Shown here piece by piece: positions 715-12,962 of a stretch of DNA of 12,962 nucleotides (within the stretch, counting starts at the first letter, position 1; the number at the start of each line of letters is the position of its first letter). The translations under genes were made by a program, and so were the position numbers. Location: positions 1 to 12,962 of the forward strand of contig CAIKKV010000193.1 in NCBI GenBank assembly GCA_903828035.1. The letters run 5' to 3'. The notes under the pieces are model-generated. The model worked only from the letters and a program-made list of their open reading frames with translations. It was not told where the DNA came from and did no database searches. The stretch comes from an uncultured bacterium. GTDB lineage: Bacteria; Verrucomicrobiota; Kiritimatiellia; CAIKKV01.

Positions 715-1575
715 CTACACCACCGGCGGCTCGGGAATGGACTCCAGGGGCGGGATGGCGATCTTGCGCCAGGCGGCTTCCGACTCGGCGGGTCCATTCT
801 CTTTCTCAATCACCGACAACCACCGATTTCGGAACAACAGGCCGTGGCGGACGACCAGGGCGGTGTTGGGCAGGCCGGCCGTTCCGGCGGTCGTGGTGCT
901 TTCGTAGTGATACATCTCCACGGCCGGCTCGTACACGACGCGATGGCCGCGGCTGCGAATCCGGTAACAAAGATCGGTGTCCTCGAACTGGACCGGATTG
1001 AACGCCTCGTCGAATCCGCCGGACTCCCGGAACACGTCCGCCCGCACCATCCAGCAGGCGCTGATGGCCCACTGCACCTCGCAACGCCGGTTGAACCGGG
1101 GCTCGCCGTTCGCTTCGCCGCGGCCCATGAAAACGACGCGCCCCGCCGGAGTGACCGCCCCGCCCGCGCACTGGATGGCATAGGGCGGGAACGGATAAAC
1201 AAGCTTGGGGCATACGATGGCGGCGGTGGAGTCCTCCTCGAAAACCCGTCCCAGGCCTTGCAGCCAGTCCCGCGAACGGACGGCCACATCGTTATCCAGG
1301 AAGACCAACCGGTCCCCGCTCGCCGCCGCCGCGGCCACATTGCGGCCCGTGGAACAGCCGATGTTGTTGGCCTGCGGCAGGATCGTTATGCGGATGCCCG
1401 CCGACTCCGCCTCCCGCTGAAACGCCTTCAGCCACTCGAGCGTGCCGTCGGTCGACCCGTTCTCCAGCACGATCAGCTCCCAATTCCGCGCGGAGGACTG
1501 CAGCAAGGAAGGCAGGCACCGGCGCGTAACCGCCAGCTTGTTGTACGTCAGGGTAATGAGGGAAATCAGGCTCAC
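715..1575 (-). CDS. Family 2 glycosyltransferase
   Basis: Predicted 286-residue cytoplasmic or membrane-associated enzyme that transfers a sugar from a nucleotide-activated donor; acceptor unknown. The GT-A fold is recognisable: an N-terminal strand SLITLTYNK (residues 5-13), VLENGSTDGT (36-45), NNIGCSTGRN (70-79), the metal-binding DND in VFLDNDV (94-96), a GGFDEAF segment (186-192) and the FEDTDLCYR acidic motif (197-205). This layout resembles rhamnosyl- and other GT2 enzymes of surface glycans; there is no transmembrane segment and the length is normal. The start is taken as GTG 1575, which overlaps the E1 beta stop as GTGA; there is no good Shine-Dalgarno and no better in-frame start, so translation probably depends on coupling. 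As last gene of the operon it suggests that the acyl product is, or becomes part of, a glycolipid or glycosylated metabolite (inference). Confidence 0.9.
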   Translation of the reverse strand: MSLISLITLTYNKLAVTRRCLPSLLQSSARNWELIVLENGSTDGTLEWLKAFQREAESAGIRITILPQANNIGCSTGRNVAAAAASGDRLVFLDNDVAVRSRDWLQGLGRVFEEDSTAAIVCPKLVYPFPPYAIQCAGGAVTPAGRVVFMGRGEANGEPRFNRRCEVQWAISACWMVRADVFRESGGFDEAFNPVQFEDTDLCYRIRSRGHRVVYEPAVEMYHYESTTTAGTAGLPNTALVVRHGLLFRNRWLSVIEKENGPAESEAAWRKIAIPPLESIPEPPVV

Positions 1576-2549
1576 GACACCAGTTTTCGGGCGGCCTTCA
1601 CAATCCGGGCCGCGTCGGGAATGGCCGCCTTCTCCAGCACCGCGCTGGCGGAAAGGGGAATGTCGGGGGTGGTCAGCCGCGAGATCGGGGCGTCGAGATA
1701 ATCGTAGATATGCTCGAACACCTGGAAGCCGATCTCCGCCGACACGCCGCCCGTGCGGGTGCCCTCCTCGACGAGAAGGAGCCGGTGCGTTTTCTTCACC
1801 GACTTCACCACGCTTTCGATATCCAGCGGATTCAGCGACCGCAGGTCGAGCACCTCGGCGCTCACCCCCTGCTCCGCCAGCTCCGCGGCCGCCAGCTCCG
1901 CCTGGTGCGCCATCCAGGACCAGGCCACGAGGGTCACATCCGCGCCTTCCCGCACCAGGCGCGCCTGGCCGAAGGGCACCACGAAATCGGCGGAAACCGG
2001 CACGGGCCCCTTCTGGCCGTACAGCAGCTTGTGCTCCATGAAGACCACGGGATTGGGGTCGCGGATGGCGGCCTTCAGCATGCCCTTGGCATCGGCGGGC
2101 GTGGCCGGCGCCACCACCTTGAGCCCCGGCGCGTGCACGAACCAGGCCTCCAGGCACTGGGAGTGGGTGGGCCCGTAGCCCTTTCCGCCCCCGCCGGCCG
2201 TGCGCACCACCAGCGGGCAGCTCATCTGCTCGCCGAACACATAGCGCAGCTTGGCGGCCTGGTTGACCAGCTGGTCCACCGTCAGGGTCATGAAGTCCAT
2301 GAACATGATTTCCACCACCGGCCGGCAGCCCGTCATGGCAGCCCCGATGGCCGCCCCCACGAACCCGGGCTCCGAGATGGGCGTGTTGCGGATGCGGGCG
2401 GGGCCGAACTCGTCGACCAGCCCCCGCGTGACGCCGAAGGCGCCGCCGTAGAGCGCAATGTCCTCGCCCATCACGAACAGGGCGGGGTCGCGCTGCAGCT
2501 CCTCCCGCAGCGCCTCGCGCAGCGCCTCGCTGTAGCTCAGGACCTTCAT
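1572..2549 (-). CDS. 2-oxo-acid dehydrogenase E1 component, beta subunit
   Basis: 325 residues, the normal length for the beta subunit of heterotetrameric pyruvate/acetoin/branched-chain 2-oxo-acid dehydrogenase E1. It forms the TPP site together with the alpha subunit encoded just before it. Visible family features: VMGEDIALYGGAFGVTRGL (residues 27-44), ISEPGFVGAAIGAA (58-71) with Glu60 at the position of the conserved cofactor-activating glutamate, GKGYGPTHSQ with His129 (122-131), APGLKVVAPATPADAKG (140-156), and the C-terminal transketolase-like domain with VLDLRSLNPLD (233-243) and LLLVEEGTRTGG (257-268). ATG 2549 overlaps the alpha stop as ATGA and has GGGAG seven bases upstream. The sequence looks fully functional. 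Substrate (pyruvate, acetoin, branched-chain or other 2-oxo acid) cannot be told by eye. Confidence 0.94.
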   Translation of the reverse strand: MKVLSYSEALREALREELQRDPALFVMGEDIALYGGAFGVTRGLVDEFGPARIRNTPISEPGFVGAAIGAAMTGCRPVVEIMFMDFMTLTVDQLVNQAAKLRYVFGEQMSCPLVVRTAGGGGKGYGPTHSQCLEAWFVHAPGLKVVAPATPADAKGMLKAAIRDPNPVVFMEHKLLYGQKGPVPVSADFVVPFGQARLVREGADVTLVAWSWMAHQAELAAAELAEQGVSAEVLDLRSLNPLDIESVVKSVKKTHRLLLVEEGTRTGGVSAEIGFQVFEHIYDYLDAPISRLTTPDIPLSASAVLEKAAIPDAARIVKAARKLVS

Positions 2550-3493
2550 GCCCACACTCCCTGCTCGAGCGTGGCGGGATCGGGGTCCGGGCTGGCGCGC
2601 GCGAACTTCACGGCCGCGGCCACCCGCCGCTTCGCCTCGGCGCGCGCGGCGCGGTCGTCCTTCTCGGTCCAGCGGGCCAGCCGCTTCAGCTCGCCCTTGA
2701 CCCGCAGGAGCGGATCCTTCTCGCGCCAGGCCGCCTCCTCCTCCCGGGTCCGGTACCGGCGCGGGTCGCCGCGCGAGTGTCCCGAAAATCGGTACGTCTT
2801 GCACTCCAGCAGCGTCGCGCCCTCGCCCCGGCGCGCCCGCGCGCAGGCCTCCGCCACGGCGTCGCGCACGGCCATCACGTCGTTGCCGTCCACCACGCGG
2901 CCGGGCAGGGCGTAGGCCGCCGCGCGCACCGCGATGTCGGGCACGGGAACCGCCTCGGCCACCGGCGTGGACATGGCGTAGAGATTGTTCTCGCACAGGT
3001 AGACGACCGGCAGCTTCCACAGGCCGGCCAGGTTCAGCGACTCGTGGAACGTGCCCTGGTTGGAGGCGCCGTCGCCGAAAAAGCAGAGCGCCACCTGCCC
3101 GCTCTTGCGCAGCTGGCTCGAGAGCGCCGCCCCCGTGGCGATCGGGATGCCGCCGCCCGTGATGCCGTTCGAGCCGAGAAAGCCCAGCGACAGGTCGGCC
3201 ATCAGCTGGCTCCCCCCGCGGCCGCGGGAGTAGCCCGTCGCCTTGCCGAACAGCTCCGCCATGATGAGGTTCGGGTCGCCGCCGCGCGCGATCATGTGGC
3301 CGTGCCCCCGGTGCGTGCTGGTCACGTAATCGCCCTTCGCCAGCGCCGCGCAGGCGCCCACGGCCACCGCCTCCTGACCGGCGGCGGGATGCGTGGTGCC
3401 GCCGATCTTGCCTTCCGCAAAGAGCGTCTCCACCGTCTCCTCGAAGAGGCGGATCGTCAGCATCAGCCGGTAATAGCCCAGCAGGTTCTTCAT
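2546..3493 (-). CDS. 2-oxo-acid dehydrogenase E1 component, alpha subunit (TPP-dependent)
   Basis: 315 residues, typical for bacterial acetoin/pyruvate dehydrogenase-type alpha subunits. It catalyses, with the beta subunit, decarboxylation of a 2-oxo acid and reductive acylation of a lipoyl domain. The TPP-binding motif runs from GDG (140-142) to ENN (168-170). Also present are the conserved HRGHGH (61-66), GRGGSQLMAD (91-100), NGITGGGIPIATGAAL (109-124), and the C-terminal YRFSGHSRGDPRRYRT loop (234-249), equivalent to the regulated loop of E1 enzymes. The start is set at ATG 3493, with the family's usual N-terminus (MKNLLGYYRLML), an AGGGGGG ribosome site, and ATGA overlap with the gene before. 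The same frame is open further upstream, but that stretch has no family similarity and lies over the other gene. All key residues appear intact, so the E1 should be active. The partner is most likely the short lipoyl protein at 6516-7010. Confidence 0.94.
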   Translation of the reverse strand: MKNLLGYYRLMLTIRLFEETVETLFAEGKIGGTTHPAAGQEAVAVGACAALAKGDYVTSTHRGHGHMIARGGDPNLIMAELFGKATGYSRGRGGSQLMADLSLGFLGSNGITGGGIPIATGAALSSQLRKSGQVALCFFGDGASNQGTFHESLNLAGLWKLPVVYLCENNLYAMSTPVAEAVPVPDIAVRAAAYALPGRVVDGNDVMAVRDAVAEACARARRGEGATLLECKTYRFSGHSRGDPRRYRTREEEAAWREKDPLLRVKGELKRLARWTEKDDRAARAEAKRRVAAAVKFARASPDPDPATLEQGVWA

Positions 3494-3843
3494 GACCCGC
3501 CCCCCTGCACGGCCAGGCAGACCGACTGCCCGCCCGCGTCGAGGCTGTTCACCAGCATCCGCCTGACGGGCTCGCCGCCCAGCCCGCTTTGCGCGTAGCC
3601 CAGGGCCGCCATCAGCTGCAAGGCGCCGCCGGCGCCCATCGTCTCCCCGGTCAGCGACTTGATGCTGTCCACCGTGGCGCCCGGATGGCGGGCGCAAAAC
3701 GCCTTGATCACGCCGGCTTCCAGCGGGTCCAGCCCGGGCCCGCCATTGGCATGGGCCAGGATGAGATCCACCTGGGGGCCCTCCCAGCCCGACTCTTGCC
3801 AGGCCGCCGCCATGGCGTCCGCCACCCGCCGCCCGCCGGTCAT
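3490..3843 (-). CDS. Ketosynthase-like (chain-length-factor-like) protein, C-terminal part
   Basis: 117 residues that correspond to the C-terminal third of a FabF-type thiolase fold. VDLILAHANGG (25-35) matches the first catalytic histidine region (His31 retained, but AHANGG instead of AHGTGT). DSIKSLTGETMGAGGALQLM (59-78) matches the second: Lys62 is kept and Glu67 stands where the catalytic His is found (GE for GH). The protein ends with a short LVNSLDAGGQSVCLAV strand pair (97-112). It starts at ATG 3843, overlapping the stop of the N-terminal part as ATGA, with GTGAGGGG about six bases upstream as a plausible ribosome site. The two parts together (358 residues) are collinear with one ketosynthase, about 11 residues shorter in the loop where the break lies. 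It is either a true two-subunit protein or one gene split by a single-base frameshift. Confidence 0.78.
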   Translation of the reverse strand: MTGGRRVADAMAAAWQESGWEGPQVDLILAHANGGPGLDPLEAGVIKAFCARHPGATVDSIKSLTGETMGAGGALQLMAALGYAQSGLGGEPVRRMLVNSLDAGGQSVCLAVQGGGS

Positions 3844-4565
3844 CCCGCGCCCCTCACCTCGCCCAGGATCCGGGCGCCCCGCGCCAGCGCCTGCTCGCGC
3901 TCCTCCAACACCACGATGCCCGCGCCTTCCCCGGGAACGAACCCGCCCTGCCCGTCCGCATCCGCCAGCGAACCGGCGGCGTGCAGCCCCGACAGCAGCA
4001 AGGCGCTCAACGACTCGAAGCCGCCGGCCAGCGCCCGGGTCTGCCGGCCCTGGCGGATCAGGTCAAACCCCTCCACCAGCGCACAGGCCGAAGAAACCGT
4101 CCCGGCGGAGAAGTTCGCATGATAGCCGGCCAGGTTGTACTCCATGGCCAGCAGGCTGATCGTGGTGTTCGAGTAGGTGTGGGGAAACAGGACCGGCTTG
4201 ACCAGCCGGGGCCCCTTCTGGACAAAGTCGGCAAAGAAAAGGCTCATCGTGGCCAGGTTGCCATAGGCGGAGCCCAGAAGAAGCGCGTCCGAGGAGCAGC
4301 TCTTCGGATCCAGGTCGGCATCCTCCAGCGCCAGGCTCATGGCGGCAAAGGCCAGCTCGGAAGACCGGTCCAGATAGTTCTTCTGGCTCTCCAGATAGTC
4401 GGCCACGGTGAAGTTTTTAACCTCCCCGGCCCGGCGCCCGCCCGCTTCAAAGGCGGTCACCGGAGCGATGCCGGAGCGACGCTCCCGCAAGGCCCCGAAA
4501 AAGGCCTCCCGCCCGATCCCGATCGCGCTGACCGGGCCGATTCCCGTGATGACGACTCGCTTCAT
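3840..4565 (-). CDS. Ketosynthase-like (chain-length-factor-like) protein, N-terminal part
   Basis: 241 residues covering the N-terminal two thirds of a FabF-type fold: MKRVVITGIGPVSAIGIG (1-18), LGSAYGNLATM (97-107), the nucleophile-elbow region NFSAGTVSSACALVEG (151-166), and FVPGEGAGIVVLEE (209-222). An ungapped alignment with the ketosynthase encoded just upstream, anchored on the shared DLI (168-170), puts Thr156 at the position of its catalytic Cys153. The only nearby cysteine, Cys161, is five residues off. Together with Glu for the second His in the following gene, this is the pattern of a non-condensing partner subunit, as in KS-beta/chain-length factors, which pair with an active ketosynthase and shape chain length. 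Start ATG 4565 overlaps the ketosynthase stop as ATGA, with GAGGA upstream; the longer in-frame start at 4676 is inside the previous gene and dissimilar. It stops at a TGA shared with the next start. Confidence 0.8.
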   Translation of the reverse strand: MKRVVITGIGPVSAIGIGREAFFGALRERRSGIAPVTAFEAGGRRAGEVKNFTVADYLESQKNYLDRSSELAFAAMSLALEDADLDPKSCSSDALLLGSAYGNLATMSLFFADFVQKGPRLVKPVLFPHTYSNTTISLLAMEYNLAGYHANFSAGTVSSACALVEGFDLIRQGRQTRALAGGFESLSALLLSGLHAAGSLADADGQGGFVPGEGAGIVVLEEREQALARGARILGEVRGAG

Positions 4566-5746
4566 GGCTTCCTCAGGATGACGGCGGCGTTGCAGCCGCC
4601 GATGCCGGCCGAATTGGAGAGCACCACCCGCACCGGGGCCTTCCGGGAGGCGTTGAACACATAGTCCAGATCGCATTCGGGATCGGCGTCCCTGAAGTTC
4701 ATCGTCGGCGGGATGACGCCATCCCGCAGCGTCAGCACGGAGGCGATCGCCTCGATGCTGCCGGCCGCCCCCATCAGGTGGCCGGTGGCCCCCTTGATCG
4801 ACGTGACCGGCATGGCCGCGGCATGGGCGCCGAACACCGCCTTGACCGCCTGGGTTTCGGTGACGTCGTTCGGCTTGGTGCCGGTGCCGTGGGCGTTGAT
4901 GTGGTCGACCTCTTCCGGCTTCATGCCGGCATCGGCCAGCGCCATTTGCATGACGGCGGCCGAGCCCGCGCCTTCCTTGGCCGGCGCGGTCATGTGGAAG
5001 GCGTTGTTGTTCAGCCCGTAACCGGCCAGCTCCGCCAGGATGGGCGCCCCCCGCTTGACCGCATGCTCGTATTCCTCAAGGACCAGGGCGCCGGCGCCAT
5101 CGCTGAAAATGGTGCCGTCGCGATTCTTGTCGAAGGGGCGGACGGCGTCCTTGCTCATGGTGCGCAGCACGCTGAGCCCGCTCCAGGCGAAGCGGGACAG
5201 CGCGTCGTAGCCCCCCGTGACAATCACCTTGGCGCGGCCGGCCCGGATCAGATCGGCTCCGATTCCGAGGGCTGCGGTCCCGGATGCGCAGGAAAGGGAG
5301 AGCGCCTGGGCCGGCCCCGTGAAACGCCAGATCCGGGCCAGCAAGTCGACGCCCGATTGAAACGACAGGCCGCCAAACTCAGGGCCGGCGGCCGCGGGCT
5401 TCGCCAGGGACTCCTCGGACGAGGCCACCGCGCCAAAATTAGTGGAGAGCACCACGCCGGTCTCCGGATGGAAGCCGGGGGTGTCCAGTCCCGCCTGCCT
5501 CACCGCCTCGGCGGCCGCGGCAAGCATGAAGCGGACGGCCAGATCCGCCTGCTCCGCCTCCGGCCCCAGCCCGGCCGGAAGCTTGAAACCGGCAATCTCC
5601 CCGCCCCGGGTGAACATCATGTCCTTCACGTCAAACCGGGTGACCGGGCGGATGCCGGTCTCGCCCCGGCAAAGGGCCGCCCAGAACGTTTCCACATCCA
5701 GGCCGATCGGCGTCACGGCGCCCATGCCTGTAATGACGATTCTCAT
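4562..5746 (-). CDS. Beta-ketoacyl-ACP synthase (FabF-like, KS-alpha type)
   Basis: 394 residues, a full-length thiolase-fold condensing enzyme that would catalyse decarboxylative Claisen condensation of an acyl starter with malonyl-ACP. Catalytic residues are visible: Cys153 in LSLSCASGTAALG (149-161), His286 in NAHGTGT (284-290), Lys318 and His323 in SIKGATGHLMGAAGS (316-330). The start is ATG 5746 (MRIVITGMGAVTPIGLD, the usual family N-terminus) with AAGGAG nine bases upstream; ATG 5773 in the same frame has no comparable support. The C-terminal loop normally written NSFGFGG reads NSAGIGG (378-384), so both phenylalanines, including the FabF gate residue, are replaced by Ala380 and Ile382. 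It lies directly upstream of, and overlaps, the degenerate ketosynthase partner, which argues for a KS-alpha/KS-beta heterodimer rather than housekeeping FabF. Confidence 0.92.
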   Translation of the reverse strand: MRIVITGMGAVTPIGLDVETFWAALCRGETGIRPVTRFDVKDMMFTRGGEIAGFKLPAGLGPEAEQADLAVRFMLAAAAEAVRQAGLDTPGFHPETGVVLSTNFGAVASSEESLAKPAAAGPEFGGLSFQSGVDLLARIWRFTGPAQALSLSCASGTAALGIGADLIRAGRAKVIVTGGYDALSRFAWSGLSVLRTMSKDAVRPFDKNRDGTIFSDGAGALVLEEYEHAVKRGAPILAELAGYGLNNNAFHMTAPAKEGAGSAAVMQMALADAGMKPEEVDHINAHGTGTKPNDVTETQAVKAVFGAHAAAMPVTSIKGATGHLMGAAGSIEAIASVLTLRDGVIPPTMNFRDADPECDLDYVFNASRKAPVRVVLSNSAGIGGCNAAVILRKP

Positions 5747-5755
5747 TCCCCTCGT

Positions 5756-5761
5756 CTCCTT
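5756..5761 (-). promoter_or_regulatory. Ribosome binding site AAGGAG of the ketosynthase
   Basis: A full AAGGAG nine bases before ATG 5746. It decides that start over the upstream in-frame ATG 5773 and lies in the only real gap (29 bases) inside the operon. Confidence 0.8.
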
Positions 5762-5775
5762 CCGGAAAACCACCC

Positions 5776-6519
5776 CTACATGTTCAGCCCGCCGTCCACG
5801 GAAATGACCTGGCCGGTGATATACCCGGCCTCCTCCGACGCCAGGAACGCGACGATAGCGGCCACATCGGCCGGCGTGCCGAACCGCTTCTGCGGGATGC
5901 CCTCAAGCTGTTTCGCCCGCCTGGCCTCCGGCATGCCGGCGGTCATATCCGTCTCAATGAGCCCCGGCGCCACGGCGTTGACCGTGATGCCCGAGGCCGC
6001 CATTTCGCGCGCGGCGGTCTTGGTCAGGCCGATCAGGCCCGCCTTGGCGGCGGCGTAATTGGCCCGCATGAGATCGCCCATGAGCCCCGCGTCCGAGGAA
6101 ATGTTGATGATGCGCCCGGCCTTGCGCCGGGCCATCTCGCGGCCCATCACCTTGATGCCGTAGAAGGCGCCCTTCAGGACCGTGTCCACCACCTCGTTCC
6201 ACTCCTCGTCCTTCATGAACGTGATGTAGTTGTCGCGGACCAGCCCCGCGTTGTTGACCAGGATATCGATCCGCCCGAACCGCTGCAGCGCCGCCTCGGC
6301 CAGCCGCTTCACCTCGTCGAGCCGGCTGACATCGGCGCCCGCGACCAGGGCCTCGCCCCCCGCGGCGACAATCTCGGCCGCCACGGCCTCCGCCTCCGCC
6401 TGGCGGGTGCGGTAGTTGACCACCACGCGGGCGCCCTGCGCGGCCAGGGCCAGCGCAATGGCGCGGCCGATCCCGCGCGAGGAACCGGTGACAATCGCCG
6501 TTCGTTCCGCCAGTTTCAT
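5776..6519 (-). CDS. fabG: 3-oxoacyl-ACP reductase, FabG-type short-chain dehydrogenase
   Basis: 247 residues, the classical FabG length; NADPH-dependent reduction of beta-ketoacyl thioesters to beta-hydroxyacyl thioesters in the cytoplasm. Visible motifs: cofactor-binding TGSSRGIG (11-18), Asp in GADVS (61-65), NNAG (89-92), catalytic Ser142 in NISSDAG (139-145), and Tyr155/Lys159 in NYAAAKAG (154-161), with 13 residues between Ser and Tyr as usual. PGLIETDMT (185-193) and the C-terminal YITGQVISVDGGLNM (233-247) complete the fold. ATG 6519 overlaps the lipoyl-protein stop as ATGA. Similarity to housekeeping FabG is strong, but the position between a lipoyl carrier and a ketosynthase pair suggests it reduces the intermediates made by that pair. 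The symbol reflects family, not proven identity with the essential fatty-acid gene. Confidence 0.93.
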   Translation of the reverse strand: MKLAERTAIVTGSSRGIGRAIALALAAQGARVVVNYRTRQAEAEAVAAEIVAAGGEALVAGADVSRLDEVKRLAEAALQRFGRIDILVNNAGLVRDNYITFMKDEEWNEVVDTVLKGAFYGIKVMGREMARRKAGRIINISSDAGLMGDLMRANYAAAKAGLIGLTKTAAREMAASGITVNAVAPGLIETDMTAGMPEARRAKQLEGIPQKRFGTPADVAAIVAFLASEEAGYITGQVISVDGGLNM

Positions 6520-7010
6520 GAAATAAACCGCCTGACCATTTCTTCGGTGACCACCTCGGCCTGATTCTCGGCCTTGACCCTGACGAGGTCAATGCCTTTC
6601 TCTTTCGCCAGGCGCCGCGCCGCCGGAGTGGCGCGCAAGGCGCCCGGATCCGAAACCGGAAGAGGGGCGGCGGCCGGCGCGGCAGCCGCGGGCGCGGCGG
6701 GTTTTTTCTTTACGGCCCGGCCCTCAAGAAGCCGGGCGTTGGCGGCCGAGACATCCGGCAGGGTTTCGCCCGCGGCGCCAATGAACGCAATCACGTAGCC
6801 GGTGGGAAGGACACTTTTTTCAGGCGCCAGGATCTTGAGAATCAGGCCTGCGGCCGGGGATTCCATTTCAAAGGCCGCCTTGTCGGTGGTCAGCTCCACC
6901 AGCGCTTCGCCCTTGGCCACCCGGTCGCCTTCCTTCTTGATCCATCCGGTGAGGGTGACCTCATCCGCATTTTCAGTCAATTTTGGAACTTTGACTTTGT
7001 TGGCCATCAT
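6516..7010 (-). CDS. Short E2-like lipoyl carrier: lipoyl domain plus degenerate subunit-binding domain, no acyltransferase domain
   Basis: 164 residues against roughly 400 or more for a normal dihydrolipoyl acyltransferase. Residues 4-80 form a lipoyl domain (VKVPKLTENADEVTLTGW; the lipoylation site is Lys44 in ELTTDKAAFEMESP). Residues 102-122 are a mobile Ala/Pro-rich linker. Residues 127-163 match a peripheral subunit-binding domain (ATPAARRLAKEKGIDLVRVK ... TEEMVRRFI). The reading frame then stops, with no 2-oxo-acid acyltransferase domain and no trace of it in neighbouring frames, because FabG begins at the overlapping ATGA. In the binding domain the usual G-T-G-x-x-G-R loop is replaced by AENQAEVV. 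The DKA motif distinguishes it from biotin carriers (MKM). Start is ATG 7010 (or 7007, two ATGs in a row) with AGGAG upstream. It should accept acyl groups from the E1 encoded downstream; the onward acceptor is unknown. Confidence 0.9.
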   Translation of the reverse strand: MMANKVKVPKLTENADEVTLTGWIKKEGDRVAKGEALVELTTDKAAFEMESPAAGLILKILAPEKSVLPTGYVIAFIGAAGETLPDVSAANARLLEGRAVKKKPAAPAAAAPAAAPLPVSDPGALRATPAARRLAKEKGIDLVRVKAENQAEVVTEEMVRRFIS

Positions 7011-7018
7011 TGAACCAT

Positions 7019-7023
7019 CTCCT
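7019..7023 (-). promoter_or_regulatory. Ribosome binding site AGGAG of the lipoyl protein, overlapping the stop of the giant protein
   Basis: AGGAG eight bases before ATG 7010; its first two bases are part of the TAG stop (7024-7022) of the preceding gene. This geometry implies a common transcript and probably translational coupling. Confidence 0.75.
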
Positions 7024-10000
7024 ATTGGACAAAAGAGCCCCAGAAGGGCACGCGGATCGGCAAGCCCGCGTTCCCCGCCTTATCGCGCGGGCGCAGCACC
7101 CGCCACCCGTTTCCGGCAAAGCCGGGCGCGACCGCCTGACCGGCGGCCGATTCGCCTTCCACCAGGGGCGCGTCCATGCCGCTGGCATCGTAAGCCTCGA
7201 TCCGCACGACGTCCGCCGTCTTGGCGGGCGCAAAGGCGAAGAAGTTCTGCACCTCGAACTGCGGGGGCGTATCCGCGCGGGTCGCGCGGACAATCAAGGA
7301 CTTCACGCTCACGCCGGCCAGATTGGTCACGCCCTTGGCCCGGGCGGCCTCCGCCACGTCAAGGAATACGGAACTCCACTCGTTGCTGCGCCAGGCCAGG
7401 GGCTCCGCCAGCGGCGAGTACCGCGGAGACGCTTTACGCGCCGTGATCGGCACGATCAGCGTGTTCGTGGTCGAAAGATCGACGTTCAAGGTGATCGTGA
7501 CCGTGTCGTTGGAGGCGGGAACCGGGCGGCGGATGCGGAACGCCAGGTAGGGGAAGGCGCCCACGCTCCAGCCCTTGTCGAACTTGCCTGAAAGCATCGC
7601 ATCCTTCTCCGCCTTCACGAGAAGATACGGCGATTCGTTGGTGGCTCGAACCAGCTCCACCGAGGTGGCGTTCCCGCGATTCACAAAATCGGAATTGCGC
7701 TCGGACTCCGGCTCCCACGAGGTGCGCCAGCCGACAGTGGCGGCATGGCGAACGGAAAGCAGGGTCGGGGGCGTGTGGTCCCTGGCGTAATCGATGGCCA
7801 GCGGAATCATCAGATCGGGAGCGTCATTCCCGGCGCCGTCGCGCACGCCCGTCAGCGCCATGCTCACCCGCTGGCCATTGGTGGCGGCGGAAAGCTGATC
7901 CCGGAACAGCTGCGGCCAGACAAAAGACAGCGTGTCCCGGTCGGGCTGATGGACCAGCCGGACCCCCTTCCCGCCCCCGGCGATCTCGGTTTGTTCCCAT
8001 TTCAGCTTCAGCTTCTCCGGGTCCAGGGGCGCGGCGCCGCCCGTGTCAAAGGTCACGTTCAGCAGGGCCCCGGCCGGGCTGGTCAAATCGGCGCCGCCAA
8101 AGGCAAACGATCCCTTCATGGGGCTGCGATCCAGGAGGAACGGAATGTCGCTCACCTGGGACTCCCGCCCGCTCCGGCCGCGGGCCTTCAGGAACAGGTG
8201 GCACAGGCCGTCGGGCAGGCCGTCAAGCCGGGGCGCCACGGGCATCGCGTTGGCGGCCGGCTGCCAGGCCAGGGCGGCGGCCTGGGGGGCGGTCAGGTCG
8301 GAAAACGCCTCGGGGCCGGCGCGAACCGCCACCGCCACCGATTCCACGCCGCCGAAATCGAAGAACTCCGGCGTGAACGCCAGCTGATCGGGCCGCGAGA
8401 CGGCGGGGCCGAACACAAGGTCATCCAGGTCCCACCGGGTGTACAAGCCCGTCTGATCGATGGAGTGGAAGGAGCCCAGCTCGGGATTGGTCACCCGGGC
8501 CGCCGCCGTGCTGAACGGCTGATCGCTCAGCGCATCGCTGACCTGCCCGCACCAGGTATGCCAGGCCCCGTCGACAAGCAGGTTCGTCCCGCCGCGAACG
8601 GCTGAGGCCGACGCCAGCGTTTCGCTGATCCGCGCGAGGCGGCCCCCGCCCAGCGAGAGGGACACCCGCGTCATCTCCTCGGCCGTCCTGTACTTGAATT
8701 GGAAAACGGGATACTGGGCCAGGGAGATCGCGACGGGAAACTGGCTGCGCAGGCGGCGGCCCTGAATCGTATTACGGACGCGCAGAAAGCTCCCCTGCTC
8801 CGGATCGAACGACTCCAGCCGGGTGCCGGCGGGATTGACCGGCGCGGCCATCGTCTGGAGCGCGCGGGGCTCGCCGTTCTGCAGGAAGGGGGTGGCCCCG
8901 GTAATCCTGGTCAGCACGGGCCGGCCCGGGGCGGGATTGTCCTTCCAGTCCAGCGTGAATGTGTTCGTGACGGCGCCCGAACAGGCCACCGACAGCGAGC
9001 CTGTGGCAAAGGCGGCCTCACGGGGAACGCTGACCGTCCGCGTCCCGTCCTCCTCCCGGTCGGCTGCCAGGGAAACGCCCTGAATCGTGACCCCGGCCGA
9101 CTGGAAGCGGGGATCCGGATAGGCGGCCGCGCCGCGCAAGGCCACCGTTTCGGGTTTCCGGCCATGCCAGGAACAGGTGATGGCCGGCTGGGCCGGCAGC
9201 CGGATCCAGGCCAGGGGGGCGGCCGCGCCGACCCGGGGCTCCGTCTCCAGGACAACCCGGATCAGACCGCTGGTGCCGGGGGAAGCCGCCCAGGCCTGCA
9301 AGCCGGCCATGTTGGTGAAGGTCGCCAGCCGCCGGCCCGTATCCGATTCAAGCACGGAAAAGCGGGCGGGAACGGGCGCCTGCGCGGGAAGCGTGATCCG
9401 CGGCGGGGCATAGGTGATCTCGGTGAAGTCCCTCACCGCATACCGGTCGGCGGCCGAATTGCCGAAAAGTCCGGCCATCTCATAGGCGGGCTGAAGGACG
9501 CCGAACCCCTCCACCTTCACAAAGTAAGGCACGCCCGGGTTCTTCGCAGGCCACTCCCCGGGAATCCAGGCCGTGACCGGACTCCAGGCCGCCTTGCCGG
9601 CGGGATCCCATTGCCCGGCGGGCGCCGGCGGTACGCCGGTTGACCCGCTCTGGATCCACTCGCTCTTGGCCGGATCGGGCCCCGAAATCCGATGCACGAA
9701 CTGCTGCTCGGCCACGAAAAGGCCCGCGTCGCTCAGCCGCCCGATGGAATAATGGAAATTGAACTGCGCGCCGGGCGTGCGCAGCACGTCGAACCGCCAG
9801 CCGGCGATCTGCTCCAGGGGAACGGGCGGCAGCAGGCAGGCCGTCTCCATGCTTCCGCCGCCCATGACGTTGCGGGCGGCGAACCAGTTGCTCGCCTTCG
9901 GGTCCGCCGGCCACTCCAGGCGAAGCCGGCTGACCGGATCGCTCGCTTCCCAGAGCGACGGCATGCACAGGGCAAGGGGCTTGCCATCCTTGCGCAGCCC

Positions 10001-12853
10001 CGCATTCTCCCGCGGAGCCGGCGCGGCGGCGGTCGGCGAAAACGTCGCTTGGGGGGAAGCCGGCAGCACGGACGGGGGGCGGAACGCGATCTGCTCCGCC
10101 GCCACCTTGACGCGCGCCACCATGATGGAGTTCATGAACGTCCAGATGCCGGCCGTTCCGCCCTGCAGGGGCTGGTCATCCTGGACGGAAAGCACCTTCT
10201 CGTTGTCGAAATACAGCTCCAGCGTCTTCCCGATGCGCCGGAGCTTCAAGTAGTACCAGGCCCCGTGCACATCGCGGCCGTTCGCGATCAGGGGCTCGTA
10301 GCCGAACCGCTTGTTGCCCTCGCGCCGGCGGGGAACCAGATATTTGTCGGACCGGGCCAGGAGCTTGCCGTTCCGGTAAAGGGTGGTGAAGAGCTGCGAC
10401 TGGTCCGGATCCCACCCGGTGCAGGTGAGGGTGTAGCCGTGGCCGAGCGAGGCGTCGGGATTCATGACGGTCAGGTTCAGGTCGCCGCACCGCTCATACC
10501 ACCCGTGCCGCTGGCCCGCGTGCATCTCGATGCAGAAATCGCCCTTGAGCGCGAGCTTGGCCCACAGGGCGGCCAGGCCGTTGGTCCCCTCCCCGTTCAT
10601 GTGGGACCAGCGGGGGTCGCACTGGAAGCGGTTCACGATCTCCCACCGGCCGCCGTTGATCACCCAGTCGAACAGGGACTCGTTGAACAGGAAATCCTTG
10701 ACGTTATAGCGCTCCACGTAGGTGGACTTGAGCTGCTCGGTGGTGAAGCCGGCCACGCGGATGCGCCGCCCCTGCAAGGGCGTTGCCAGGCTGTGCTTGA
10801 AGAGGAGCCGGTCGCCGCTGGTGACCCAGATCCAGCGCCCCTCGGCCTGGACCTTGTACCAGGTGCAGGTGGCCGCGTCCGTGGCCAGGTTCGTGGCGGA
10901 GGCCGTCTCCACGGGCGGCCTCAGCGCCGCGGGATCGGAGCCCGGCCGGAGGGACAGGGCGCCGGCGCGGGCCTGGATAATCCATTCGCCATTGGTCGAA
11001 TCCCCTTCCCCCACCCCCAGGTGAATCTCGCTGGGCTGCACCAGCGGCATCCGCAAAGAAAGGCGGCCGAAGAAGTCGCCCGTATACCAGGTCAGGCCGT
11101 TGGTTTCCGCCAGCCACTGCCCTTCCGGCGACGCCCAGTGGCGCATGAAGGGATCGATCACATACCGGTTGTTCTTCTCGTAGCGATTCAGGAACAGCCC
11201 CTCCCGCCGGCCCTGGTAGAGCGGCAGGCCGATCCGGGCGGCGGTTCCGGGCCCCACGAACAGGCCGGAGGCGCCGGCGCCGCCCTCGGCCGGCGCATGC
11301 ACCAGGACGAGTTCCTCATTCCGGTACATCCGCCATTCGCCGGGCGTGGCCGCGTCGATCATCAGGCGGACGGGGCCGGCGGGGGCCAACTCCGGCTTCA
11401 GCGGCAGGCGGAGCTCCTCCAGAACCCGGACCCTGTTTCCCTCAACCGCTTCCAGCGTGAAGCGCTCGCCGGCGGCGTTGCGCTGGCGGACGAAGCGCGT
11501 GTAGGGCTTTTCGGCCGCCGTGTAGCCCGCCAGCAGGCCCACGGTGGACTCGGCGTTCGTCAGCTCAAACTCGGCGGAAAACACGTGCGGCGCATGCGCG
11601 GCGGCGCCCACCACGAGCCACTGGGGCCGGGCCGAAACAGGCGGGGCCAGGAACCGCTGCTCGACCGGCTTCGAAAACAGGCTGCCCCACCAGGTTTGGC
11701 GGGGGAAAAAGGCGCCCTCCTCCGCCAGCGTTTGCCGCCGCAGCTCCTGGAAATCGTGGAAGTCCAGATCGTGCGTCGACTCGGCCACGACGTCGTCGAA
11801 CCGGGCCTCCTCGCTCGTATCGGCGTACAGGCCCAGCTGTCCGCCCGGGGGCAGGTCGGCCGGCACGTCAAACAGCTTGGCCTGATCGAGGAAACATTCG
11901 ATCCGGTTGCCCGGAAGCTTGACCCGGAGCTTCAGCCACTGGCCGGGGCCGGTCTTGATCACGGTCGAGGCCAGCGTCACACGCACCGCGTGATTCGAGC
12001 CGGCGGAGGACCACAGGCTCAGCCACGCCTCGTCCGCCTCCCCTCCCATCGTCAGCGTGTAGCCATGGCAGGCCCCCGAGTTCTGGCAGGCGAACAGCAG
12101 GCCGCGCTCGCCGGGGCCGGTTCGCACGCCGGCTTCGTAGTTATACCGGTCGTAGAAGTCGTAGCCCACGGTGATGACCGCCCCGGTGCCTTTTCCGGCG
12201 AGGCTGTAGAAGTTGGGGCTGAAGTCCGACTGCAGGAGCCGCTTCGACTCCGGCTTGACCACTTTGTTTTCCAGCGCCGTCTCGAGGGCGGTGTGCAGAT
12301 ACCACTTCCCGGAGCCCGCGGTCCACTCGCCCAGCGGGTTCTCCTCCCCCTCCGGCCGCAGGAAGCTGTCCTCAAAGCGGAAATCCGCCACCTTCTGAAA
12401 CCGGCTCCGGGCCTCGGCGGGCTGCTCGCTCCGCGGCTGGAGGACGATGAACGGCGGCGTCAGGGCCGGGGGAAGCGACGCCACGAAGCGGTCGCCGGCA
12501 TAGAGGCTCCACTCTTCCTGCCGGATCTTGAGCACCAGCGGCAGGCTGGTCAGCGCCGAAGCCGGGAACGCGTCGGGCTTGAACTGGTGCCGCTCGGCCA
12601 AATCCGGAGGAAAGGAACCGGCCGCCGACAGCAGGCGAATCGCGAAATCCTTCTGGCTGACCGAAAGATCGACCAGGCGGTTGGTATCGGGCGTCGCCAC
12701 GCGGAGATGGAGGCTGGCGCCGGGCTCCCAGCGGGCGGAAACGGACAGGTTTCCCTCGGATTCGATCACGCCCGAACAGTTCGTCCAGTCCCCGCTCGCG
12801 AAAACAGTCAGCGCCAAGGCGCTGCCCGATAATACCAACAGTAAACGTCTCAT
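7022..12853 (-). CDS. Giant exported protein with repeated lectin-like beta-sandwich modules, function unknown
   Basis: 1943 residues. An N-terminal signal peptide (MRR, then the hydrophobic stretch LLLVLSGSALALTVFA, cleavage near residues 19-21) points to export. The rest looks like a chain of concanavalin/LamG- or jelly-roll-type modules: about 155-358, 410-545, 560-700 and 715-925, with further beta-rich blocks at about 975-1150, 1345-1485 and 1720-1880. Modules 1 and 4 are related: both open with DF-x-F-x-(D/E)-S (157-163 and 720-726), share HGYTLT (263-268 and 805-810) and end with a GG-x-x-G strand. The last two blocks resemble CBM11/CIA30-like sugar-binding folds. A Pro/Ala-rich spacer lies at 926-949. 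There is no catalytic motif that I recognise, no C-terminal sorting signal and no membrane anchor; it ends PFWGSFVQ. A cell-surface adhesin or glycan-binding role is a guess. ATG 12853 has GGCGGAG nine bases upstream. Confidence 0.85.
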   Translation of the reverse strand: MRRLLLVLSGSALALTVFASGDWTNCSGVIESEGNLSVSARWEPGASLHLRVATPDTNRLVDLSVSQKDFAIRLLSAAGSFPPDLAERHQFKPDAFPASALTSLPLVLKIRQEEWSLYAGDRFVASLPPALTPPFIVLQPRSEQPAEARSRFQKVADFRFEDSFLRPEGEENPLGEWTAGSGKWYLHTALETALENKVVKPESKRLLQSDFSPNFYSLAGKGTGAVITVGYDFYDRYNYEAGVRTGPGERGLLFACQNSGACHGYTLTMGGEADEAWLSLWSSAGSNHAVRVTLASTVIKTGPGQWLKLRVKLPGNRIECFLDQAKLFDVPADLPPGGQLGLYADTSEEARFDDVVAESTHDLDFHDFQELRRQTLAEEGAFFPRQTWWGSLFSKPVEQRFLAPPVSARPQWLVVGAAAHAPHVFSAEFELTNAESTVGLLAGYTAAEKPYTRFVRQRNAAGERFTLEAVEGNRVRVLEELRLPLKPELAPAGPVRLMIDAATPGEWRMYRNEELVLVHAPAEGGAGASGLFVGPGTAARIGLPLYQGRREGLFLNRYEKNNRYVIDPFMRHWASPEGQWLAETNGLTWYTGDFFGRLSLRMPLVQPSEIHLGVGEGDSTNGEWIIQARAGALSLRPGSDPAALRPPVETASATNLATDAATCTWYKVQAEGRWIWVTSGDRLLFKHSLATPLQGRRIRVAGFTTEQLKSTYVERYNVKDFLFNESLFDWVINGGRWEIVNRFQCDPRWSHMNGEGTNGLAALWAKLALKGDFCIEMHAGQRHGWYERCGDLNLTVMNPDASLGHGYTLTCTGWDPDQSQLFTTLYRNGKLLARSDKYLVPRRREGNKRFGYEPLIANGRDVHGAWYYLKLRRIGKTLELYFDNEKVLSVQDDQPLQGGTAGIWTFMNSIMVARVKVAAEQIAFRPPSVLPASPQATFSPTAAAPAPRENAGLRKDGKPLALCMPSLWEASDPVSRLRLEWPADPKASNWFAARNVMGGGSMETACLLPPVPLEQIAGWRFDVLRTPGAQFNFHYSIGRLSDAGLFVAEQQFVHRISGPDPAKSEWIQSGSTGVPPAPAGQWDPAGKAAWSPVTAWIPGEWPAKNPGVPYFVKVEGFGVLQPAYEMAGLFGNSAADRYAVRDFTEITYAPPRITLPAQAPVPARFSVLESDTGRRLATFTNMAGLQAWAASPGTSGLIRVVLETEPRVGAAAPLAWIRLPAQPAITCSWHGRKPETVALRGAAAYPDPRFQSAGVTIQGVSLAADREEDGTRTVSVPREAAFATGSLSVACSGAVTNTFTLDWKDNPAPGRPVLTRITGATPFLQNGEPRALQTMAAPVNPAGTRLESFDPEQGSFLRVRNTIQGRRLRSQFPVAISLAQYPVFQFKYRTAEEMTRVSLSLGGGRLARISETLASASAVRGGTNLLVDGAWHTWCGQVSDALSDQPFSTAAARVTNPELGSFHSIDQTGLYTRWDLDDLVFGPAVSRPDQLAFTPEFFDFGGVESVAVAVRAGPEAFSDLTAPQAAALAWQPAANAMPVAPRLDGLPDGLCHLFLKARGRSGRESQVSDIPFLLDRSPMKGSFAFGGADLTSPAGALLNVTFDTGGAAPLDPEKLKLKWEQTEIAGGGKGVRLVHQPDRDTLSFVWPQLFRDQLSAATNGQRVSMALTGVRDGAGNDAPDLMIPLAIDYARDHTPPTLLSVRHAATVGWRTSWEPESERNSDFVNRGNATSVELVRATNESPYLLVKAEKDAMLSGKFDKGWSVGAFPYLAFRIRRPVPASNDTVTITLNVDLSTTNTLIVPITARKASPRYSPLAEPLAWRSNEWSSVFLDVAEAARAKGVTNLAGVSVKSLIVRATRADTPPQFEVQNFFAFAPAKTADVVRIEAYDASGMDAPLVEGESAAGQAVAPGFAGNGWRVLRPRDKAGNAGLPIRVPFWGSFVQ

Positions 12854-12862
12854 GAAGCGTTA

Positions 12863-12869
12863 CTCCGCC
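12863..12869 (-). promoter_or_regulatory. Ribosome binding site GGCGGAG of the giant protein
   Basis: GGAG nine bases before ATG 12853, directly followed by a typical signal peptide, which supports this start. Confidence 0.6.
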
Positions 12870-12937
12870 ATCCGCCATTGAGCGTCAAAGAAACCGGCGC
12901 CCAGCGCTGTGTTTGAGCCATCGTCATCGAACCGGGA

Positions 12938-12943
12938 AGTATA
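12938..12943 (-). promoter_or_regulatory. Possible -10 element TATACT upstream of the giant protein
   Basis: TATACT matches the -10 consensus in five of six positions and lies about 85 bases before ATG 12853. A -35 element at normal spacing would fall on or beyond the window edge, so it cannot be judged. If real, it could drive the giant gene and the whole operon behind it. Confidence 0.25.
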
Positions 12944-12962
12944 CACGATAAAGTCCGGCAAA

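Follow-up and report, generated by a model that had tools for sequence, protein, structure and literature searches.

Why should the E1 genes of a 2-oxo-acid dehydrogenase stand in one operon with a minimal lipoyl carrier and a pair of ketosynthases (KS)? The question is raised by contig CAIKKV010000193.1 of an uncultured bacterium of the Kiritimatiellia (assembly GCA_903828035.1); the window analysed here is this entire contig, 12,962 bases in length. A first-pass annotation had placed seven functions in it, from a lipoyl carrier to a glycosyltransferase, and had suggested that the unit makes a chain from a decarboxylated starter. All seven lie at the positions then given, on the minus strand. 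We propose, with a probability of about one half, that a dedicated E1-lipoyl system loads a small type II ketosynthase pathway, the acyl product of which goes to a surface glycan or glycolipid.

Arrangement of the operon

The genes, in the order of transcription, are as follows (amino acids, aa; profile scores in bits).

6516-7010, minus strand: LIP, stand-alone lipoyl carrier, 164 aa (PF00364 53.8 bits; PF02817 31.3 bits, partial profile)
5776-6519, minus strand: FabG-type ketoreductase of the short-chain dehydrogenase/reductase (SDR) family, 247 aa (PF13561 217 bits; TIGR01830 293.2 bits, cut-off 297.75)
4562-5743, minus strand: KSa, intact ketosynthase (TIGR03150 382.1 bits, cut-off 493.75; residue alignment)
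3840-4565, minus strand: KSb, N-terminal part (PF00109 74.1 bits; alignments)
3490-3843, minus strand: KSb, C-terminal part in a shifted frame (PF02801 46.7 bits; alignments)
2546-3493, minus strand: E1alpha, 315 aa (PF00676 279.4 bits; TIGR03182 361.5 bits, cut-off 393.85; trees)
1572-2552, minus strand: E1beta, 326 aa (PF02779, PF02780; NF006667 393.9 bits, above the cut-off of 321)
715-1575, minus strand: GT2 glycosyltransferase, 286 aa (PF00535 77.7 bits)

The genes had been described as having overlapping ends. This is the case for five of the six joins among the seven genes, with overlaps of 4 to 7 bases, but FabG and KSa are separated by 32 bases.

Conservation of the gene set

A KSb profile was run against genome contigs, and 39 pattern hits gave 27 loci, at which the presence of each gene was scored by tblastn with fixed score limits. 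The loci are titled Kiritimatiellae, Lentisphaerae, Verrucomicrobia, Planctomycetota, Zipacnadia, Armatimonadota, Abditibacterium and others. KSb was found at 24 of them, KSa at 23, E1alpha at 18, FabG at 17, E1beta at 16 and LIP at 14; the genes that flank this core, described below, were found at fewer loci (GT2 and acyl carrier protein (ACP) at 10 each, a hydrolase-2-like gene and the large gene BIG at 9 each, a hydrolase-1-like gene and GT4a at 6 each). Without locus L004, where both genes are part of an ordinary-looking FabG-ACP-FabF set (L004:14484-16966), these counts are 16 for FabG and 9 for ACP; a KSb-E1alpha-E1beta cassette lies some 5 kb upstream of that set. The order of the genes also recurs. 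E1alpha is the next gene after KSb in 18 loci, and FabG comes after LIP in all 14 loci with LIP, with an AcpS-like gene between the two in L015, L017 and L025 (Pfam check in L017 only). In L001, a papain-like protease with a lectin-like domain and two open reading frames (ORFs) without relatives among the loci stand between E1beta and GT2 (L001:13033-18390).

Because the order recurs in several phyla, the gene set is more than a product of chance. The first-pass annotation had called for a search of gene neighbourhoods in other genomes; by this comparison, the association of LIP, the KS pair and E1 appears to be conserved and dedicated, and the order is not confined to the present genome, E1alpha being at 18 and LIP at 14 of the 27 loci. 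When whole genomes were searched, a LIP match was obtained in each of the 20 cassette genomes, at the locus in 14 and elsewhere in six; the same search found LIP again in G014 and G020. The copies elsewhere are frames of 173-229 aa in G004, G010, G013, G017 and G018. In G019, the match is partial (model positions 5-102), and its frame, of 387 aa, is at the end of a contig.

It could be argued that unrelated functions share one transcription unit, namely that a spare pyruvate dehydrogenase E1 lies beside a glycan or polyketide synthase-like operon, as some loci are without E1 or LIP and LIP can stand alone. This explanation seems very unlikely to us, since the set is conserved over several phyla and LIP is present in all of the cassette genomes (one match being partial), and since the cassette E1alpha sequences group together even when unlinked and domains of the set are fused, as described below.

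The lipoyl carrier and its relation to E2 and E3

LIP had been regarded as a carrier made of a lipoyl domain and a peripheral subunit-binding domain (PSBD) only. A lipoyl domain and a PSBD-like tail are indeed present, but the Pfam PSBD match covers only profile positions 2-22 of 36. In the AlphaFold model (mean pLDDT 80), a lipoyl domain (residues 1 to about 80) is followed by an extra helix (88-101) with the motif PDVxxxN, a disordered linker (101-122) and the PSBD-like tail of three helices. A fold search of the Protein Data Bank returned lipoyl and biotinyl domains; the motif of LIP is DKA and not the MKM of biotinyl domains. Among the best 120 relatives aligned, the lipoyl Lys is present in 119, the remaining one having a gap, and both the first conserved PSBD Arg and the Asn of the PDVxxxN helix are invariant (120/120). 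The Arg position of the GxGxxGR loop is Arg in only 2 of the 120, and the position of the Asp that follows it is Asp in 7. The sequence GSGxxGRI is present in all three readable full E2s from the same phylum (L064, L065 and L066), from which the PDVxxxN helix is, by eye, absent; the E2 loci L067 and L068 gave no readable frame and stand outside this comparison. A Pfam scan found no E2 core domain (PF00198) in LIP. Because LIP has a PSBD without the GxGxxGR loop and an extra helix with an invariant Asn, its identity as a trimmed E2 was rejected; judged by these alignments, LIP is a family of its own. The genome G005 also encodes a second lipoyl/PSBD protein (L078:4722-7365), of 169 aa, in which the PSBD profile is matched to the end; it adjoins a fused E1, and the cassette E1alpha is about 22 kb away in the same contig.

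A full E2 (PF00198) was found in 19 of the 20 cassette genomes, and an E3 above the cut-off also in 19. Inside the cassettes of these 20 genomes, neither an E2 catalytic gene nor an E3 was found. The nearest E2 and E3, in G020, are about 33 kb from the glycan genes described below as module B; in the other cassette genomes, they are on contigs other than those of KSb and module B. Thus, in the relatives' genomes the E1 genes do not form a normal dehydrogenase operon with a full E2 and E3, the arrangement that the first-pass annotation had named as the opposing case.

As E3 and a full E2 are encoded elsewhere in nearly all of the cassette genomes, LIP could act as an adaptor like the E3-binding protein, docking E1 on the E2/E3 core of the genome and supplying acetyl-CoA for an ordinary KS pathway; the first Arg, kept in all of the aligned PSBD-like tails, would agree with such docking. 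However, LIP is without the E2 core domain, and its PSBD is without the loop present in each full E2 that could be read from the same phylum. In addition, a large family has the carrier fused to FabG (see below), and E2 and E3 were not found in the cassettes. We consider the adaptor role to be unlikely. E1 and the LIP carrier look dedicated to the KS pathway, and not to the production of acetyl-CoA.

Grouping of the E1 genes

The best NCBIfam model for the window E1alpha, the pyruvate dehydrogenase-type TIGR03182, is matched below its cut-off, and pyruvate as the substrate of E1 is therefore a guess. Trees of E1alpha were built from the loci fetched, which are a subset of the E1 matches, and additional E1 genes are present elsewhere in the cassette genomes. 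The final tree contains 34 sequences; L028, which has a long branch, and L034, a 3.2-kb contig of G004 that was inside the cassette group in an earlier tree (fork 89/65), were left out. In the final tree, 21 cassette-type E1alpha sequences form one group together with L124 from G115 (91/81), the E1alpha of which adjoins E1beta and GT2. Two of the 21 (L042 and L053) are unlinked copies, labelled as cassette type from their placement in a preliminary tree. The E1alpha of two genomes with the fusion described below (L123 and L125) is the sister of the cassette group (90/81), and the remaining 10 of the 34 rows are outside both.

The ketosynthase pair

The catalytic Cys, two His and Lys are intact in KSa of the window and in 22 other cassette-type KSa. 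At the position of the FabF gate Phe (F400 in the numbering of Escherichia coli FabF), KSa of the window has Ile. In an alignment of 31 rows, the gate Phe is lost in all 23 cassette-type KSa (Ile in 22 and Leu in one). The other eight rows comprise one with Ile (L027), one fragment and six with Phe. Of these six, three are ordinary FabF-like KS, and in the other three (L022, L023 and L024) KSa and KSb are fused in one protein. The fused proteins have neither LIP nor E1 at their loci, L022 being titled goat rumen, and perhaps represent a sister pathway. Another natural fusion with two KS domains occurs in L011.

KSb had been described as a degenerate ketosynthase, and its active-site Cys is in fact replaced with Thr and its second His with Glu, the first His and the Lys being kept. 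Of its best 120 relatives, that of the window included, 2 have the Cys, 12 have the first His (with gaps in 19) and 9 have the second His (with gaps in 3). However, KSb of the window is not one ORF but two, at 3840-4565 and 3490-3843, which overlap by 4 bases (3840-3843) with shifted frames in a G-rich stretch; a single ORF is ruled out by this frame shift, and the two pieces were searched separately. Because the aligned relatives, including the closest, P0122 (91% identical), are single proteins, the break is, to judge from the alignments, a matter of this contig (a sequencing error or a recent mutation) and not a trait of the family.

Fusion of the lipoyl domain with FabG

In G103 and G098, a lipoyl domain and FabG are joined in one protein (471 and 447 aa, respectively); these are 2 of the 96 sampled genomes of the phylum, in which eight others match via FabG alone. 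A search with the G103 protein gave at least 120 such relatives (212 pass E 1e-60 among 7,999 scored), the best 120 of which all have PF00364 and PF13561. All of these 120 have the lipoyl Asp-Lys, the helix Asn, and the Ser and Lys of the SDR, and 119 have the SDR Tyr. The organism, where given, is Lentisphaerae, Lentisphaeria or Victivallales, and the product name, where given, is mostly 3-oxoacyl-ACP reductase. In G103, the fusion adjoins a KSa-KSb protein, and the 20-kb stretch around it has no match to the ACP of L005 at E 1e-8.

What the fusion most directly suggests is that the lipoyl arm of LIP carries the chain itself, so that KSa-KSb would extend it and FabG reduce it on dihydrolipoyl, the finished acyl group then moving to ACP. 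The constant place of FabG after LIP, the lipoyl Lys and SDR Ser kept in all of the best 120 fusions, the helix Asn shared without exception by LIP and the fusions, and the gene neighbourhood in G103 agree with this. On the other hand, an ACP belongs to the set of the relatives, as does an AcpS-like gene at three loci; ketosynthases normally use malonyl-ACP; and the fusion may reflect co-expression or scaffolding. We regard chain carriage by LIP as improbable, though worth keeping in mind, and doubt to the same degree that the swinging arm of chain building is lipoic acid in place of phosphopantetheine, with a product that decorates a surface glycan. The fusions and the changed gate of KSa are also compatible with the loading that we prefer, in which the acyl group would pass directly from the lipoyl arm.

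Downstream genes and the product

In 9 of the 27 loci (L001, L005-L009, L013, L016 and L017), an ACP stands after GT2 and is followed by the hydrolase-2-like gene; in L017, GT2 and ACP are fused. L005 continues with a second alpha/beta-hydrolase, three GT4 glycosyltransferases and a MurJ-like protein. The NCBIfam matches in L005 are exosortase-A hydrolase 2 (150.6 bits, cut-off 202.75), hydrolase 1 (103.5 bits, cut-off 168.45) and, for the first GT4, the PEP-CTERM/XrtA glycosyltransferase (119.8 bits, cut-off 409.05). These genes, here called module B, also keep their order apart from KSb, with GT2 in L079, L080, L081, L083 and L084 and without it in L076, L082 and L085; L077 (G115) has the two hydrolases alone. 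E1beta lies within the split module B in L081, L083 and L084. A sugar-epimerase-like protein is found between the hydrolase-1-like gene and the GT4 genes at L081:8403-9257 and L084:9266-10138 (profile scan of the L081 copy).

The hydrolase-2-like gene is present in all 20 cassette genomes, with best E-values all at or below 1.3e-25, and a second hydrolase match lies within 3 kb of it in 18 (not in G004 and G006). It is on the KSb contig in eight (G001, G005-G008, G012, G015 and G016), and in several of the other 12 genomes the contig ends before it could appear. In an even sample of the phylum, 6 of 115 genomes have it (E 1e-20): G005, G115 and G127 with a stand-alone LIP, G098 and G103 with the LIP-FabG fusion, and G134 with neither. 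The model for hydrolase 2 (TIGR03101) is above its cut-off in none of the 20 cassette genomes and matched at E 1e-3 in all; the ligase model TIGR03098 is also above its cut-off in none. The exosortase (PF09721) occurs in 14 of the 20; G006 alone has it on the KSb contig, at a distance of some 50 kb, as a match of 80.8 bits in a 1402-aa frame. With the hydrolase and ligase under their cut-offs and the exosortase not in the cluster, membership in the exosortase A system was rejected. A hydrolase-2-like query against a plasmid collection, seeking annotated XrtA neighbours, gave no match.

The gene content of the window agrees with the earlier statement that ACP, E3, a dehydratase and a full E2 are missing from it, but the window is a whole contig, and the ACP of the relatives is just downstream of GT2; when related ACPs and hydrolases were used as tblastn queries, the window showed no convincing remnant of either. 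Because the relatives also carry an ACP, two hydrolases, GT4s and a flippase as part of the set, the cassette probably makes an acyl group destined for a glycan or glycolipid and not a free chain.

Proposed pathway

In the pathway that we favour, the operon would be the acyl-making half of a two-module route to an acylated surface glycan or glycolipid. With thiamine diphosphate, E1alpha and E1beta would remove CO2 from a 2-oxo acid (most likely pyruvate) and load the resulting acyl group onto the lipoyl arm of LIP. KSa, together with the inactive KSb, would take the acyl group from this arm, without transfer to CoA by an E2, and add a C2 unit from malonyl carried by the cassette ACP, and FabG would reduce the 3-oxo group. 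Since the set has FabG, but no dehydratase or enoyl reductase was recognised in it, the product is expected to be a short 3-hydroxyacyl-ACP. The two hydrolases, GT2, the GT4s and the MurJ-like flippase of module B may then attach this acyl group to a saccharide and carry out the export, and an E3 acting in trans would reoxidise LIP.

Several observations weigh against this pathway. LIP is at only 14 of the 27 loci; around its six copies elsewhere, FabG is near in G013 and G017 and BIG in G010, and the stretches in G004, G018 and G019 contain no queried cassette gene. In L007, GT2 directly follows KSb without E1. L027 has the gate Ile, and LIP and E1 were not seen at its locus, and the 20-kb stretch around the G098 fusion shows no KS. 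The supports of the E1alpha forks are modest (89/65 in the earlier tree and 91/81 in the final one), E1alpha, FabG and KSa of the window are all under the cut-offs of their best NCBIfam equivalog models, and the hydrolase matches are so in every cassette genome. Weaker ligase-like proteins related to TIGR03098 are present in 17 of the 20 genomes (E 1e-30), and one of them (G006:C33, 202 bits) has a weak second hydrolase match about 3 kb away. E3 and nearly always a full E2 are also present in these genomes. The gene set, its conservation, the motifs, the fusions and the E1alpha grouping are features of the sequences themselves, from which the chemical steps, the substrate and the product are predicted.

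If the proposed pathway is correct, it would provide another start for type II chain synthesis, besides ATP-dependent ligases and CoA/ACP transacylases, and would couple the decarboxylation of a keto acid directly to the formation of a carbon-carbon bond. It would also give a testable role to the lipoyl-FabG fusions that databases name 3-oxoacyl-ACP reductase, and would suggest that the hydrolase pair linked by NCBIfam to exosortase A systems, where its function is unassigned, takes part in acylation. The recurrence across phyla points to an undescribed loading route for the carbon-chain synthesis of a surface sugar product.

Neighbouring genes

Upstream of LIP, two further features were recognised in the window.

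7022-12853, minus strand: BIG, 1943 aa (PF06439 28.8 bits; signal-peptide-like start by eye)
12863-12962, minus strand: end of an esterase gene of a polyhydroxyalkanoate (PHA)-depolymerase-like family (tblastn 60.6% over 33 aa, E 1e-6)

The PF06439 match of BIG is a weak match to 3-keto-disaccharide hydrolase. Relatives of BIG stand upstream of LIP in 9 loci, titled PVC group, Lentisphaerae, Kiritimatiellia, Verrucomicrobia or uncultured. The esterase is also upstream of BIG in L001 (NF050058 60.6 bits, cut-off 150), and in L017 a PHA-depolymerase-like esterase lies between FabG and KSa (72 bits, cut-off 150); such an esterase fits, weakly, a 3-hydroxyacyl ester. At the other contig end, after GT2, positions 3-404 encode a partial DUF1016_N protein (103.8 bits), which also matches the PADLOC candidate defence family PDC-S02 (134.7 bits).

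Comparison with known systems

Judged by titles and the openings of abstracts, no literature describing the cassette gene set was found. The main text of Haft 2006 (PMC1569441) does not contain hydrolase, acyl carrier, ligase and like terms, and a term search of PMC9570651 gave nothing that bears on the cassette. The pyruvate dehydrogenase complex resembles the cassette in E1alpha, E1beta and the lipoyl/PSBD domains, but LIP lacks the E2 catalytic domain and has an altered PSBD and an extra helix, and the cassette is without E2 and E3. With the type II polyketide synthases of the KS and chain-length factor type, the cassette shares an active KS with a degenerate partner, a ketoreductase and, in the relatives, an ACP; it differs in the proposed E1-lipoyl loading, the replaced gate Phe of KSa and the glycan module.

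The genes associated with exosortase A (XrtA) include hydrolases 1 and 2, a GT4 and a ligase. L005 is similar in having an ACP, the hydrolase-2-like and hydrolase-1-like genes and an stp2-like GT4 in a row; however, these matches are below cut-off, TIGR03098 is over its cut-off in none of the 20 cassette genomes, and PF09721 is on the KSb contig only in G006.

The pair NapB/NapD of naphthyridinomycin biosynthesis, with the ACP NapC and the KASIII protein NapE (also DinU/S/T/Q of dnacin), is alike in that a dedicated thiamine-type pair feeds an ACP with a KS-type protein beside it; a lipoyl group has a role in that system. As described in PMC7570522, NapB/NapD is of the transketolase type and obtains a C2 unit from a ketose phosphate. 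By contrast, the cassette has E1alpha and E1beta of the 2-oxo acid type, a separate lipoyl/PSBD-like carrier, a FabF-type KS pair and FabG. The window does not match a transketolase-type pair with KASIII, its E1 being of the E1_dh type with TIGR03182 as the best NCBIfam model and its KS of the FabF type.

The pair AmcF-AmcG of the cispentacin and coronafacic acid pathways consists, as described in PMC10698177, of a KS and a KS-like partner without functional motifs; together with one ACP (AmcB), it extends a 2-oxo-acid-derived substrate by a single C2 unit, the loading being performed by the ligase AmcH. The AmcF and AmcB profiles are matched below cut-off by KSa of the window (246.5 versus 325) and the ACP of L005 (66.9 versus 80), respectively. 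Thus, the cassette resembles AmcF-AmcG in pairing a KS with a degenerate partner, whereas its loading is proposed to proceed via E1 and LIP instead of a ligase.

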